Program-made: the position numbers and the translations under genes | Shown here: piece by piece, positions 18,549 to 34,732 of the stretch | Numbering within the stretch: the stretch's first letter is position 1 | Layout: each line of letters starts with the position of its first letter | Notes under the pieces: generated by a model | What the model was told of the DNA's origin: nothing | Seen by the model: the letters and a program-made list of their open reading frames with translations, nothing else | Databases searched by the model: none | NCBI RefSeq assembly: GCF_900111195.1 | Contig: NZ_FOGL01000001.1 | Coordinates: forward strand, 434,001 to 498,000 | Direction of reading: 5' to 3' | Source of the DNA: Gracilibacillus ureilyticus | Lineage (GTDB): Bacteria > Bacillota > Bacilli > Bacillales > Amphibacillaceae | DNA length: 64,000 bases

Positions 18549-20453
18549 TTATTCTTCTTCTTCTGGTAAATTCATTGTATTATCCTTAAAATCGTAGAAC
18601 CTGAACAAGTCTCCAAAAATAATCTGGTCCGAATAAGACAATTCTTTCTGTACTTGTTCAATATACGGCTGACATGCTGATGTTTCTTCATCTAAATCAG
18701 TAGCAGTGTCAATTAACTCCCCTGTTTCTCTGTTATAACACTGATCTTTTGTATAAAGATATTCATCTGTTACAAAACTTCCATCACGAAATGCGATAAA
18801 ATCTTTTCTTTCCTCTGCAAATAAATTGGTACCAAAAGAAAGATCGTTCGAATCGTCTATTCCTAGTAAATGAAGAAGCGTTGGCTTCACATCTATCTGG
18901 CCCGCAATTTTGGAGATAGTCTCTCCTTCTTGGCCCGGAATATGAATATAGAACGGTACTCTTTGCAGCTGAAGGTGAAGATAGTCTGTATACTCTTCCT
19001 CTAAATAGGTGCTCATTGCCTTTTTATGAAAGTCACTAATACCATAGTGGTCTCCCATTAATACAATGATAGAATCCTCATATAATCCTGTTTCTTTAAG
19101 ATAAACAAAAAACTCTTCAATTGATTCATCCATATATCTTGCAGTCTGGAAGTAACTGTTTAACGTATTAGAGTTCGAATCATACTTTTCAATTGTTGCA
19201 TCCTCTTCATCCAGTTCAAACGGATAGTGATTTGTCAGTGTAATAAACTTTGCGTAAAACGGTTGTTCCATTGATTGCATATATTTCATTGATTGACGGA
19301 AAAAGTCTTTATCTTTCAATCCCCAGCCAATCGAATTTTCTTCTGTCACTTCATATGCATCTACATCAAAAAATCTGTCATAACCGATATTATCATACAT
19401 TACATCACGGTTCCAGAAACTTTTGTTATTTGCATGGAAAACTGAACTGTAGTACCCTTCATTGCCAATAATCTCAGGTAGTGAATGATAATCGTTCTGA
19501 GCATGGGTAAAGTATACAGCCCCTCTTGGCGATGGATACAGTGAATTTTCAATAATAAATTCTGAATCCGATGTTTTTCCCTGTTCTGTCTGATGATAGA
19601 AATTTTCAAAATAATAACTGTCATCAATCAGATCATTAAGGAATGGAGTTACTTCTTCTCCATTCATCGTGTTATTTATCACAAACGTCTGCAATGATTC
19701 TAGTGAAATGAAAATCACATTTTTATCTTTCGCGATGCCGTATAATTCTGTTTCCTGCTGTATCGATGTCTCATCTTTCATATACTCTTCTATTTCTGTC
19801 AGTTCATTGCCATCAGCAAAAACCCTTTGTGCTTTTGATTTAGAATGCATAACAGCATCGTAAATGTGATAACTGAACAATCCCAGGTTCTTAACAAGAT
19901 ACTCCCTGTCAAATGTTCTCTGCAACAATTGCGGGCGTTCTATTTCCGCTAACACATAATTACCAACAAGAAAGGCAATTGACATTGTCAGTACAGCTGT
20001 TTTGTATCTGTGTTTAAATGAAGCCATTAATTGGTCACCATGTTTAATTGTCAGGAACCATACGATAACTACATCTAAAAACAGCAGAATATCCCATACT
20101 TTAATCAGACTTAGAACACTTGATCCAAGGTCTGCTGCATTACTTCCCTGAAACAGCAGCGGAATTGTAATAAAATCAGTGAAATTACGGTAAAACACAA
20201 TATTAAAATAGATAATTAATGAACCTATTAAAATCATATATTTAATATATTTCTTTTGTCTTCTCTCTTTAAACCATATACCAATTGCAAATAAAAAGAA
20301 TGACACAGCAAAAGCATTAATTAATAAGATCAGCTCCTGCATCGTATTATCAAGTGAAATATTAAACACAAATCGATAAACAATATATGTCTTTAAACCA
20401 AAAAGTAATGCTGCAATTAAAAAGAGCGGCATGTGCAGCTTTTTGTTAAACAT
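18549..20453 (-). CDS. yqgS: LtaS-family lipoteichoic acid synthase or primase (YqgS)
   Basis: Polyglycerolphosphate transferase of the LtaS family, using phosphatidylglycerol as donor on the outer face of the membrane. 634 residues: five hydrophobic N-terminal segments (to about residue 165), then an extracellular sulfatase-fold domain. The catalytic Thr lies in FISLESLQTF near residue 260, and metal ligands in MGDHYGISDFHKK and the HANNKSFWNRD region. B. subtilis has four LtaS paralogues; position makes this YqgS. Preceded by an ECF-type promoter, hinting at envelope-stress control. Confidence 0.88.
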   Translation of the reverse strand: MFNKKLHMPLFLIAALLFGLKTYIVYRFVFNISLDNTMQELILLINAFAVSFFLFAIGIWFKERRQKKYIKYMILIGSLIIYFNIVFYRNFTDFITIPLLFQGSNAADLGSSVLSLIKVWDILLFLDVVIVWFLTIKHGDQLMASFKHRYKTAVLTMSIAFLVGNYVLAEIERPQLLQRTFDREYLVKNLGLFSYHIYDAVMHSKSKAQRVFADGNELTEIEEYMKDETSIQQETELYGIAKDKNVIFISLESLQTFVINNTMNGEEVTPFLNDLIDDSYYFENFYHQTEQGKTSDSEFIIENSLYPSPRGAVYFTHAQNDYHSLPEIIGNEGYYSSVFHANNKSFWNRDVMYDNIGYDRFFDVDAYEVTEENSIGWGLKDKDFFRQSMKYMQSMEQPFYAKFITLTNHYPFELDEEDATIEKYDSNSNTLNSYFQTARYMDESIEEFFVYLKETGLYEDSIIVLMGDHYGISDFHKKAMSTYLEEEYTDYLHLQLQRVPFYIHIPGQEGETISKIAGQIDVKPTLLHLLGIDDSNDLSFGTNLFAEERKDFIAFRDGSFVTDEYLYTKDQCYNRETGELIDTATDLDEETSACQPYIEQVQKELSYSDQIIFGDLFRFYDFKDNTMNLPEEEE

Positions 20454-20540: not shown

Positions 20541-20583
20541 TATTTCTTAAAAAAAGTTACATTTTTTTTACAAACTTAATAAT

Positions 20584-32139: not shown

Positions 32140-32215
<76 letters not shown>

Positions 32216-32242
32216 AAAGTATAATTTTGTTTTTAATATGTA

Positions 32243-32335
32243 TGGAGGAGGAAGAGGGATTCGAACCCCCGCGGGCTTTGACACCCCTGTCGGTTTTCAA
32301 GACCGATCCCTTCAGCCAGACTTGGGTATTCCTCC
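32243..32335 (-). tRNA. tRNA-Ser (UGA)
   Basis: 93 nt including CCA, with the long variable arm expected of serine tRNA. Anticodon loop CTTGAAA, acceptor GGAGGAA/TTCCTCC. Confidence 0.96.
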
Positions 32336-32345
32336 GTATATATAA

Positions 32346-32422
32346 TGGTGGACCCTGCAGGACTCGAACCTGCGACCGATCGGTTATGAGCCGATAGCTC
32401 TAACCAACTGAGCTAAGGGTCC
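32346..32422 (-). tRNA. tRNA with CAU anticodon, probably tRNA-Ile2 (lysidine)
   Basis: 77 nt including CCA; anticodon loop CTCATAA. The acceptor stem GGACCCT and the CTATCGG anticodon stem resemble the B. subtilis tRNA-Ile whose C34 is changed to lysidine by TilS so that it reads AUA. The separate CAU tRNA at 32533 fits elongator Met. Ile2 rather than Met is therefore inferred. Confidence 0.8.
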
Positions 32423-32435
32423 TTCTCATTAAACA

Positions 32436-32512
32436 TGGGGCGACCGGTGGGGATCGAACCCACGCATGTCGGAACCACAATCCGATGTGTTAACCACTTC
32501 ACCACGACCGCC
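32436..32512 (-). tRNA. tRNA-His (GUG)
   Basis: 77 nt including CCA; anticodon loop TTGTGGT. The gene encodes the extra 5' G opposite C73 that is diagnostic of tRNA-His. Confidence 0.95.
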
Positions 32513-32532
32513 ATTGATTTTAGTATGTTATA

Positions 32533-32609
32533 TGGTAGCGGCGGAGGGGATCGAACCCCCGACCTCACGGGTATGAACCGTACGCTCTAGCCAGCTGAGC
32601 TACACCGCC
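32533..32609 (-). tRNA. tRNA-Met (CAU), elongator
   Basis: 77 nt including CCA; anticodon loop TTCATAC, 5' GGCGGTGTAGCTCAGCTGG as in B. subtilis elongator Met. It lacks the mispaired first position and GGG/CCC anticodon stem of an initiator. Confidence 0.92.
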
Positions 32610-32611
32610 AT

Positions 32612-32686
32612 TGGCTCCACAGGTAGGATTCGAACCTACGACCGATCGGTTAACAGCCGATTGCTCTACCACTGAGCTACTGTGGA
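32612..32686 (-). tRNA. tRNA-Asn (GUU)
   Basis: 75 nt including CCA; anticodon loop CTGTTAA, acceptor TCCACAG/CTGTGGA. First gene of the six-tRNA operon. Confidence 0.96.
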
Positions 32687-32846: not shown

Positions 32847-34478
32847 TTAATGTTTTTCACCAAGTACTTCGTCTGCTATATTTACTGCATGGTCTCCTAT
32901 TCTTTCTAAATTACTAATAATATCTGCAAAAACAATTCCGGCTGCCCCTGTACATACCCCTTCGTTTAGACGAATAATATGCTTCTTTCGATAAGCTCTC
33001 TCCATGTTATCTATCTCGTTTTCCTTCTGCACAACAGACAATGCTGCTTCTCGGTCCATTTGGTCCAATGCGCGAATAGCTTCTTTTACAGTAATTATCG
33101 TTAAATCAAACATCTCATTCAGATCAATCATTCCTTGCTCTGTAATGTCTACTTTATTGGAAATTTTATAATTAATCAATTCTACAATATTTTCGAAATG
33201 GTCCCCCATTCTTTCGATATCTCTAACCGAATTAATTAACGTAGAGTGATTTAATCTTTCCGCCTCAGAAAAATTAGTACCGGATAATTCTACTAAGTAG
33301 GAAGTTATTTCTCTGTCCAGATTGTTTAGCGCGCCTTCTAACTGCATCGCCATCTCTTCATGTTTTGTACTGTTTGTATTAAGAAATGTGCTCGTTTCTT
33401 CTAATCCTTTTGCGGCATACTCACCCATTCGTACAATCTCTGCCTTTGCCTGATCAAGGGCAACGGAAGGTGATTGTTTGATAAAGATAGGATCTAGATG
33501 CTTCGGTTTATATTCTACGATTGCATCCTCACCAGGTATAATTTTCGTAACAAGCAATGCTAATAGTCCAATAAATGGAAACTGAATAATCGTATTCAGC
33601 ACATTAAATATCCCATGTGAAAATGCGACCGTCATTGCCGGATTCAGCTCAAGAGCTGCCTGAATATTCTCCATTAAAATCGTGTAAAAGTTTATAAAAA
33701 TAATGACTACAGTAGCACCAATTACATTAAAGATTACATGTGTAAGGGCTGCTCTTTTTGCTGCAACACTTGCGCCAATGGCTGCTAATACTGCAGTAAT
33801 GGTTGTTCCGATATTATCCCCGAATAATACTGGTAACGCTGCTTTCAGTTCAATAGCACCTTCCAACATGAGACTCTGCAATATTCCGATTGTTGCACTT
33901 GAACTTTGAACAAGAATTGTAAAGACAGTACCAATTACCACACCTAAAATAGGGTTTTGGGACATACTGACAGTTAAGTCATGGAACATTTCAACTTCTC
34001 TTAAAGGTTTAAGACCTGAACTCATCAGTTCCAACCCGTAGAATAGCGATCCGAAACCAAAAATCGTTAAACCGATATTCGTCAATTTATTATTTTTGAA
34101 GAAGAATAGTAAGAATGCACCTATCCCGATTATTGGCAGAGAGTATGCGCCAAGATCAAACCCGATGATAAACGCCGTAACCGTTGTACCAATATTGGCA
34201 CCCATTATGACACCGATGGATTGCCTTAATGTCATGAAACCTGCATTCACAAGGCCTACAGTCAGTACAGTGGTCCCTGAACTTGACTGGATAAGGATTG
34301 TAACGACTATACCTGCAAGAACCCCTAAAAAAGGATTGCTGGTTGTCTTATCAAGGATGTCTCTTAACCTGTCTCCAGCGGACTTCTGCAGTCCTTCTCC
34401 CATGTACTTGATACCTAGAAGGAAAATACCGAGCCCGCCAATAAATTCAAATATCATTGCTTGTACATTTACATCCAA
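32847..34478 (-). CDS. nptA: Na/Pi cotransporter family protein with PhoU domain
   Basis: Sodium-coupled phosphate transporter of the NptA/YjbB type, 543 residues. About nine to ten hydrophobic segments to residue 315 include the two inverted repeats with QSSSGTT and QSSSATI motifs that bind phosphate; a PhoU-like helical domain follows (about 340-540). The start is TTG 34478 behind AAGGG. No other gene in its transcript. A PhoP-box-like array lies upstream (34600-34649), fitting induction by phosphate limitation. Could act in export rather than uptake, as YjbB does. Confidence 0.9.
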   Translation of the reverse strand: MDVNVQAMIFEFIGGLGIFLLGIKYMGEGLQKSAGDRLRDILDKTTSNPFLGVLAGIVVTILIQSSSGTTVLTVGLVNAGFMTLRQSIGVIMGANIGTTVTAFIIGFDLGAYSLPIIGIGAFLLFFFKNNKLTNIGLTIFGFGSLFYGLELMSSGLKPLREVEMFHDLTVSMSQNPILGVVIGTVFTILVQSSSATIGILQSLMLEGAIELKAALPVLFGDNIGTTITAVLAAIGASVAAKRAALTHVIFNVIGATVVIIFINFYTILMENIQAALELNPAMTVAFSHGIFNVLNTIIQFPFIGLLALLVTKIIPGEDAIVEYKPKHLDPIFIKQSPSVALDQAKAEIVRMGEYAAKGLEETSTFLNTNSTKHEEMAMQLEGALNNLDREITSYLVELSGTNFSEAERLNHSTLINSVRDIERMGDHFENIVELINYKISNKVDITEQGMIDLNEMFDLTIITVKEAIRALDQMDREAALSVVQKENEIDNMERAYRKKHIIRLNEGVCTGAAGIVFADIISNLERIGDHAVNIADEVLGEKH

Positions 34479-34585
34479 AAGTTTTCATCCCTTCACTTAT
34501 AGCTTCTATGTATTATGATGTATCTTTGCTCGAAGTTAATGACATTGTCAGACATAATTCGCAAACACACACGATTCTAATATTA

Positions 34586-34649
34586 ATTATATATTAATGT
34601 TTTGTAAAGGTGTTTACGGAAAATTTACACTAAATTAACAAAGTGTTAA
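34586..34649 (-). promoter_or_regulatory. PhoP-box-like direct repeats and -10 upstream of nptA
   Basis: Reading the minus strand: TTAACA (34649-34644), TTAATT (34638-34633), TAAATT (34627-34622), TAAACA (34616-34611), ACAAAA (34605-34600), each exactly 11 bp after the last, then TATAAT at 34591-34586. TTAACA-like hexamers with 11-bp phase ahead of the -10 are how B. subtilis PhoP-activated promoters are built. Function is inferred. Confidence 0.6.
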
Positions 34650-34700
34650 TCACCAGATTTTTACTGTTCCCTTACTACTTTAGCTTTACCTCTTTTCAAC

Positions 34701-34728
34701 AAAAAAAAACATAGAGTTTTCCTCTATG
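34701..34728 (-). terminator. Terminator after the short NfeD gene
   Basis: Minus strand: CATAGAG, loop GAAAA, CTCTATG, then nine T. Confidence 0.9.
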
Positions 34729-34732
34729 CTCA

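Follow-up and report, generated by a model that had tools for sequence, protein, structure and literature searches.

The question raised by this locus is whether the gene of a Na+/Pi cotransporter in Gracilibacillus ureilyticus, a salt-loving relative of Bacillus, is under the control of the phosphate regulator PhoP and, if so, through which boxes and on which strand. We analysed a window of 64,000 nucleotides, that is, the whole stretch of DNA to which the positions below refer unless a contig is named. The gene, nptA, lies on the minus strand (32847..34478), starts with TTG and encodes a protein of 543 amino acids that scores above the cut-offs of TIGR00704, PF02690 and PF01895. Both the Na_Pi_cotrans repeats and a C-terminal PhoU domain are present, an architecture shared with the S. 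aureus counterpart. There is one nptA match in the 4.07-Mb genome, and the closest named relatives of the protein are from Gracilibacillus (92% protein identity). Downstream of nptA, six tRNA genes (Phe, Ser, Met, His, Met, Asn) are clustered on the minus strand (32140-32686).

Promoter and repeats upstream of nptA

The gene upstream, which encodes a protein with an NfeD domain (PF01957), also lies on the minus strand. Since it is ended by a terminator-like hairpin (34707..34731, minus strand; one found by the hairpin scan versus 0.1 expected), nptA is probably read from its own promoter. A promoter scan predicts a conserved -35 element, TTTACA (34603..34608, minus strand), and a -10 element (34579..34585, minus strand) that is either TAATAT, with a spacing of 17 bp, or AATATT, with one of 18 bp, and reads TTAATAAT in most orthologs. 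The transcription start is predicted to lie a few bases downstream of 34579.

The original prediction placed nptA in the Pho regulon on the basis of five TTAACA-like hexamers at minus-strand positions 34649, 34638, 34627, 34616 and 34605, followed after 8 bp by a TATAAT. The letters, the coordinates and the 11-bp phase are correct, but only one of the five hexamers is perfect: in this order they read TTAACA, TTAATT, TAAATT, TAAACA and ACAAAA, and score 6, 5, 4, 5 and 3 of 6 against TTHAYA (23 of 30 in sum). A five-box score of at least 23 is found at 15 of 127,902 window positions, and 187 of 2000 shuffled versions of the AT-rich, 254-bp gap had a best five-box score of 23 or more (single bases were shuffled, with dinucleotides not kept), so that this array is within chance. 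The TATAAT is indeed present at 34591-34586, but in 0 of 16 other orthologs from the genus, where the five hexamer registers score on average 2.6, 4.1, 4.0, 3.6 and 2.6 of 6. The prediction was to stand or fall with its 11-bp register in sister species; that register is not kept there, while the register of an inverted pair, described below, is. Both the proposed register and the TATAAT were therefore ruled out as functional elements, by conservation and by the shuffles.

The strongest pair of boxes is found on the opposite strand. It reads TTTACA-N5-TTAACA on the plus strand (34624..34640), or TGTTAA-N5-TGTAAA towards nptA; it lies just upstream of the -35 element and faces away from the gene. 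It is part of a wider plus-strand array at 11-bp phase, TTTACG, TTTACA, TTAACA and TTAATC (34613..34651), which matches at 22 of 24 positions. This is the single best four-box array among 127,924 window positions, and was equalled in 0 of 2000 gap shuffles; a looser two-box statistic is weaker, being reached in 36 of 2000. In other words, the tandem TT(A/T/C)A(C/T)A boxes at 11-bp phase that are typical of PhoP do occur upstream of nptA, but the strong, conserved pair is not on the coding strand, where the other recognised phosphate genes of this genome have theirs. That the inverted boxes serve a divergent gene was ruled out, because the genes flanking the gap are both on the minus strand.

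A second array, TTTACA-N5-TTAATA-N5-TTAATA, was found on the coding strand (34581..34608, minus strand), offset by 3 bp from the register originally proposed; its middle box is at 34592-34597. No other three-box array in the window is exact (the sole score of 18/18 among 127,946 positions), and 1 of 2000 gap shuffles reached it. The three-box pattern with two mismatches is not enriched across the whole window (49 matches versus 47.7 expected). This array overlaps the -35 and the -10 elements. In the usual Pho layout the -10 element stands some 9 bp downstream of the final coding-strand box and there is no -35 element, whereas at nptA the third box falls on the -10 region itself, and TTTACA forms a -35-like element.

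Conservation in Bacillales

We collected 77 nptA upstream regions. A search of 61 genomes (59 of which have an nptA match) supplied 30 loci and 26 further stretches, and named genomes supplied another 21 loci out of 23. L031 and L032 were dropped as duplicates, having the same contig coordinates as L003 and L002, a stretch with two tandem nptA copies (L155) was counted once, and about 30 distant NptA-like and PhoU-only matches were left out. Note that there is some redundancy, so that rows do not count as independent: L017 and L038, L035 and L036, or L048 to L051, for instance, are near-identical.

The pair TGTWAA-N5-TGTWAA, read towards the gene, occurs in its exact form in 59 of these 77 regions, where shuffling gives an expectation of 0.075; this count is independent of any alignment anchor. 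With a looser anchor (a spacer of 12 to 18 bp allowed, and a slight preference for 15), 65 of the 77 regions could be aligned. In 64 of the 65, a spacer of 15 or 16 bp separates the pair from TTTACA, and a TTAATAAT-like -10 element starts 16 bp after TTTACA in the aligned rows, which is partly so by construction. Since the pair and TTTACA served as anchors both in this alignment and in a smaller one of 55 rows, part of the sharpness of their columns is by construction as well, and in seven of the 65 rows (L046 and L048 to L053) the anchor sits on a weak and probably wrong place. The sequence on either side of the pair is little conserved in the 65 rows. In the 55 rows, 109 of the 110 half-sites have A as their sixth base. 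The two half-sites score on average 5.94 and 6.00 of 6 in the 16 other orthologs from the genus, values that are partly due to construction since the rows were anchored on the pair.

The full pattern, TGTWAA-N5-TGTWAA-N14-16-TTKACA, is found at nptA in 16 of the 17 genomes of the genus, whereas the backwards control gave no match in any of the 17. Three further matches were seen, two of them away from nptA in G003 and the third within the nptA promoter of G004, on its opposite strand. The exact pair is missing in 18 of the 77 regions. Among these, L002, L034, L035, L036 and L039 are one base off and have kept the core promoter; L150, L153, L156, L161 and L162 have forward arrays in its place; L158 has an inverted array with looser boxes; and L045, L142, L147, L151, L160, L163 and L164 have neither an inverted pair nor a forward array in exact form. 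L046 and L047, on the other hand, have three exact inverted boxes.

For the coding-strand boxes, we calculated the TTHAYA score at each offset from TTTACA. Leaving self-overlap aside, maxima are seen only at +11 and +22, with 4.81 and 5.88 of 6 in the 16 other rows of the genus, and 4.11 and 4.95 of 6 in 38 rows from outside it. Since the box at +22 is also the -10 region, the spacer box at +11 alone counts as independent evidence. Its score is above all of 5000 row-wise shuffles. When columns were permuted so that relatedness was kept, the score was reached at that offset in 13 (genus) and 25 (outside) of 5000 permutations, and at any offset in 163 and 242. We regard the evidence for the +11 box as suggestive.

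The Staphylococcus-like genomes, recognised by a match to TIGR01889 above its cut-off, differ in polarity. A full-length NptA was found in 12 of 23 such genomes, and 11 of these 12 nptA genes have the exact pair in forward orientation. The inverted TGTWAA pair was seen in 0 of the 12; L216 has, far upstream, a pair that fits the looser TGTWAH. Both these genes and Gracilibacillus nptA have PhoP-type boxes at 11-bp phase, but in the former they point towards the gene, while in the latter the strong pair is inverted and lies upstream of a full -35/-10 promoter. Six Staphylococcus-like nptA genes carry TTAACATTAAATTTACA; in six Bacillales rows the site is exactly this sequence in reverse complement.

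Pho-type boxes elsewhere in the genome

In the genome as a whole, the loose pair pattern has 70 matches, compared with 61 for the backwards control. By a crude ORF rule 32 of the 70 are intergenic, and 16 of these have A in both half-sites. Seven of the 16 lie at recognised phosphate genes: those of pstS, a PhnD-like protein, PhnG, polyphosphate kinase (Ppk), a UgpC-like ATPase, an aminoethylphosphonate-type binding protein, and nptA. The genes of pstS, PhnG and Ppk pass the NCBIfam cut-offs, the PhnD-like protein is above the cut-off of Pfam and below that of NCBIfam, and the UgpC-like ATPase and the aminoethylphosphonate-type binding protein are both below their family cut-offs. At the other 16 intergenic sites, among which family models were run on L184 and L079 only, we recognised no phosphate gene. 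At the six other phosphate genes the boxes point towards the gene, and among the seven nptA alone is inverted.

The pstS gene (C34:83477-84292), which is on a different contig from nptA (C23), follows the usual layout: TTTACA, TTTACA, TTAATA and TTAATA on the coding strand at exact 11-bp phase, then 9 bp, then TATGAT. The rule that the -10 element lies about 9 bp below the last box thus holds here. The half-sites (TTTACA, TTAACA, TTAATA) and the phase are those of nptA, but there is no inverted pair: in the 17 genomes of the genus that were checked, it is absent at pstS from all 17, and the exact forward pair is found in 16. In several members of the genus pstS is 5 to 8 kb away from nptA.

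Some further sites may be mentioned. Pho-type boxes point towards the genes of a GT4 glycosyltransferase (L182, C30; possibly acting on a membrane glycolipid), a choice-of-anchor I protein (L197, C35) and a GGDEF-CBS protein (L064, C18), which are candidates for new members of the Pho regulon. An inverted TGTAAA-N5-TGTAAA (L173, C27:34698-34714) was found 103 bp upstream of a Bmp-family lipoprotein gene, without the -35 spacing seen at nptA.

Regulator and sign of control

From the sequence, we consider it likely that nptA is a Pho-regulon gene with a sigma-A-type promoter of its own and with PhoP on the inverted pair. Phosphate probably regulates it, as is known for the S. aureus counterpart, which requires PhoPR and whose expression rises as Pi falls (extracts of PMC13170248). 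The membership originally predicted is backed by conservation, by the Pho-type boxes of the same genome and by PhoPR dependence in S. aureus, but not the boxes that were named for it, nor their strand and register. According to a paper on Bacillus, which cites work on S. aureus, P limitation typically induces nptA; in B. licheniformis its expression persisted at full phosphate (both from extracts of PMC12676729).

We infer that the bound protein is PhoP, although the pair fits two regulators alike. The consensus of PhoP is TT(A/T/C)ACA-N4-6-TT(A/T/C)ACA (extracts of PMC12404567), that of WalR is TGTWAH-N5-TGTWAH (extracts of PMC5405149), and the two are nearly reverse complements of each other. 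Possibly WalR (YycF), alone or jointly with PhoP, acts at nptA; that the inverted pair is a WalR site, with nptA in the regulon of the cell-wall regulator or shared between WalR and PhoP through cross-talk, we regard as unlikely. Upstream of the -35 element, the pair agrees at every position with the WalR consensus, read in the direction in which that consensus is given, so that nptA pair and WalR box are one 17-bp pattern when read towards the gene (extracts of PMC5405149). Cross-phosphorylation between PhoR and YycF, and between YycG and PhoP, has been reported in B. subtilis (extracts of PMC13403408). Furthermore, an NlpC/P60 wall-hydrolase gene of the same genome (L184) has a pair in the same orientation, but with C and T as the sixth bases, whereas at nptA this base is nearly always A and the gene serves phosphate uptake. 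A similar split is seen among the sites predicted, not footprinted, in S. epidermidis, which we counted by eye from the extracted part of a table in PMC5405149: the sixth base is A in 8 of 8 cases at pstS, phnD, pitA and pitR, and in only 2 of 14 at seven wall-hydrolase sites. Orientation was ruled out as proof of WalR, since the predicted wall-hydrolase sites face either way (PMC5405149) and the mode of WalR is set by position, not by sequence or orientation (PMC10746227; both papers in extracts). In the main text of the latter, a WalR ChIP-seq paper, nptA has 0 occurrences. The presence or absence of PhoR is uninformative as a test, because a PhoR-type kinase (NF046044) is above cut-off in 61 of 61 genomes, including this one. 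PhoP is favoured over WalR by the sixth base, by the A/A sites at phosphate genes with their forward boxes, by the ordinary forward Pho arrays of the Staphylococcus-like relatives, and by the PhoPR dependence of S. aureus nptA.

If PhoP is the regulator, then under phosphate limitation PhoR would phosphorylate PhoP, and PhoP~P would bind head-to-tail on the TTTACA/TTAACA pair just upstream of the -35 element, facing away from nptA, and perhaps also, more weakly, on the coding-strand boxes in phase with the -35 element. The effect would most likely be activation: transcription from the sigma-A-type promoter (TTTACA, 17-18 bp, TTAATAAT-like) would be raised, and more of this Na+-coupled importer of phosphate would be made. 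The forward boxes that overlap the core promoter are weaker; they may make binding tighter or put an upper limit on expression.

The sign of the control may nevertheless be the reverse, since the orientation is opposite to that of the other Pho-type sites of the genome. This same orientation, with upstream boxes that face away and coding-strand boxes (the +11 and +22 maxima) that cover the -35 and -10 elements, would also suit a PhoP that binds but represses, in which case nptA would be the importer of phosphate-replete cells, turned down when Pst is turned up. PhoP~P does repress tagAB in B. subtilis (extracts of PMC6232261). Such a role seems improbable to us, because S. aureus nptA is induced and not repressed (extracts of PMC13170248), the box at +22 is the -10 element itself, and the independent box at +11 was reached by some of the permutations given above. 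Finally, that the repeats are a chance product of an AT-rich promoter and nptA has no phosphate regulation is very hard to believe: the register first proposed is at chance level and unconserved, and most genome-wide matches of the loose pair are chance, but the 59 exact inverted pairs, with flanks that are little conserved, already contradict it.

While the control of nptA by PhoPR is already known from S. aureus, the inverted, conserved geometry appears to be new by our analysis. Searches of largely open-licence literature brought up neither a description of a conserved inverted Pho pair upstream of Bacillaceae nptA nor any report of Pho boxes there. The counterpart gene in B. subtilis is presumably yqeW, and no paper with both yqeW and PhoP was found in the extracts of open-licence literature searched. 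The comparison is weak, as the B. subtilis protein is of the type without the C-terminal PhoU domain (extracts of PMC13170248), which Gracilibacillus NptA has.

Our results suggest that the Pho control of a Na+/Pi importer extends to many Bacillales. A scan for PhoP boxes on the coding strand only, or one that assumes the layout of pst, would misread the nptA promoter, as happened in the original prediction. Nature also provides, in the nptA promoters, a test of whether activation or repression is decided by the polarity of tandem response-regulator boxes. A bolder reading, which we consider rather improbable, is that in Bacillaceae-like families PhoP acts on nptA through boxes of reversed polarity, opposed by a second set in forward orientation at the core promoter. 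The regulator that activates pst would then set nptA by another rule (the opposite sign, a ceiling, or a joint input of WalR), and the polarity would differ between Staphylococcus and Bacillaceae, while the 17-bp site can be identical.

Two minor observations were made in the window. A WalR-like pair, TGTAAA-N5-TGTAAC (20556-20572, minus strand), lies 119 bp upstream of the gene at 18549-20453, which is lipoteichoic acid synthase-like and below the family cut-off on the part scanned. In the leader of nptA, just below the promoter, there is a direct repeat TGTC-N6-TGTC (34541-34554, minus strand), possibly a second operator, which is present in 14 of 17 rows of the genus and in 0 of 48 aligned rows from outside it.
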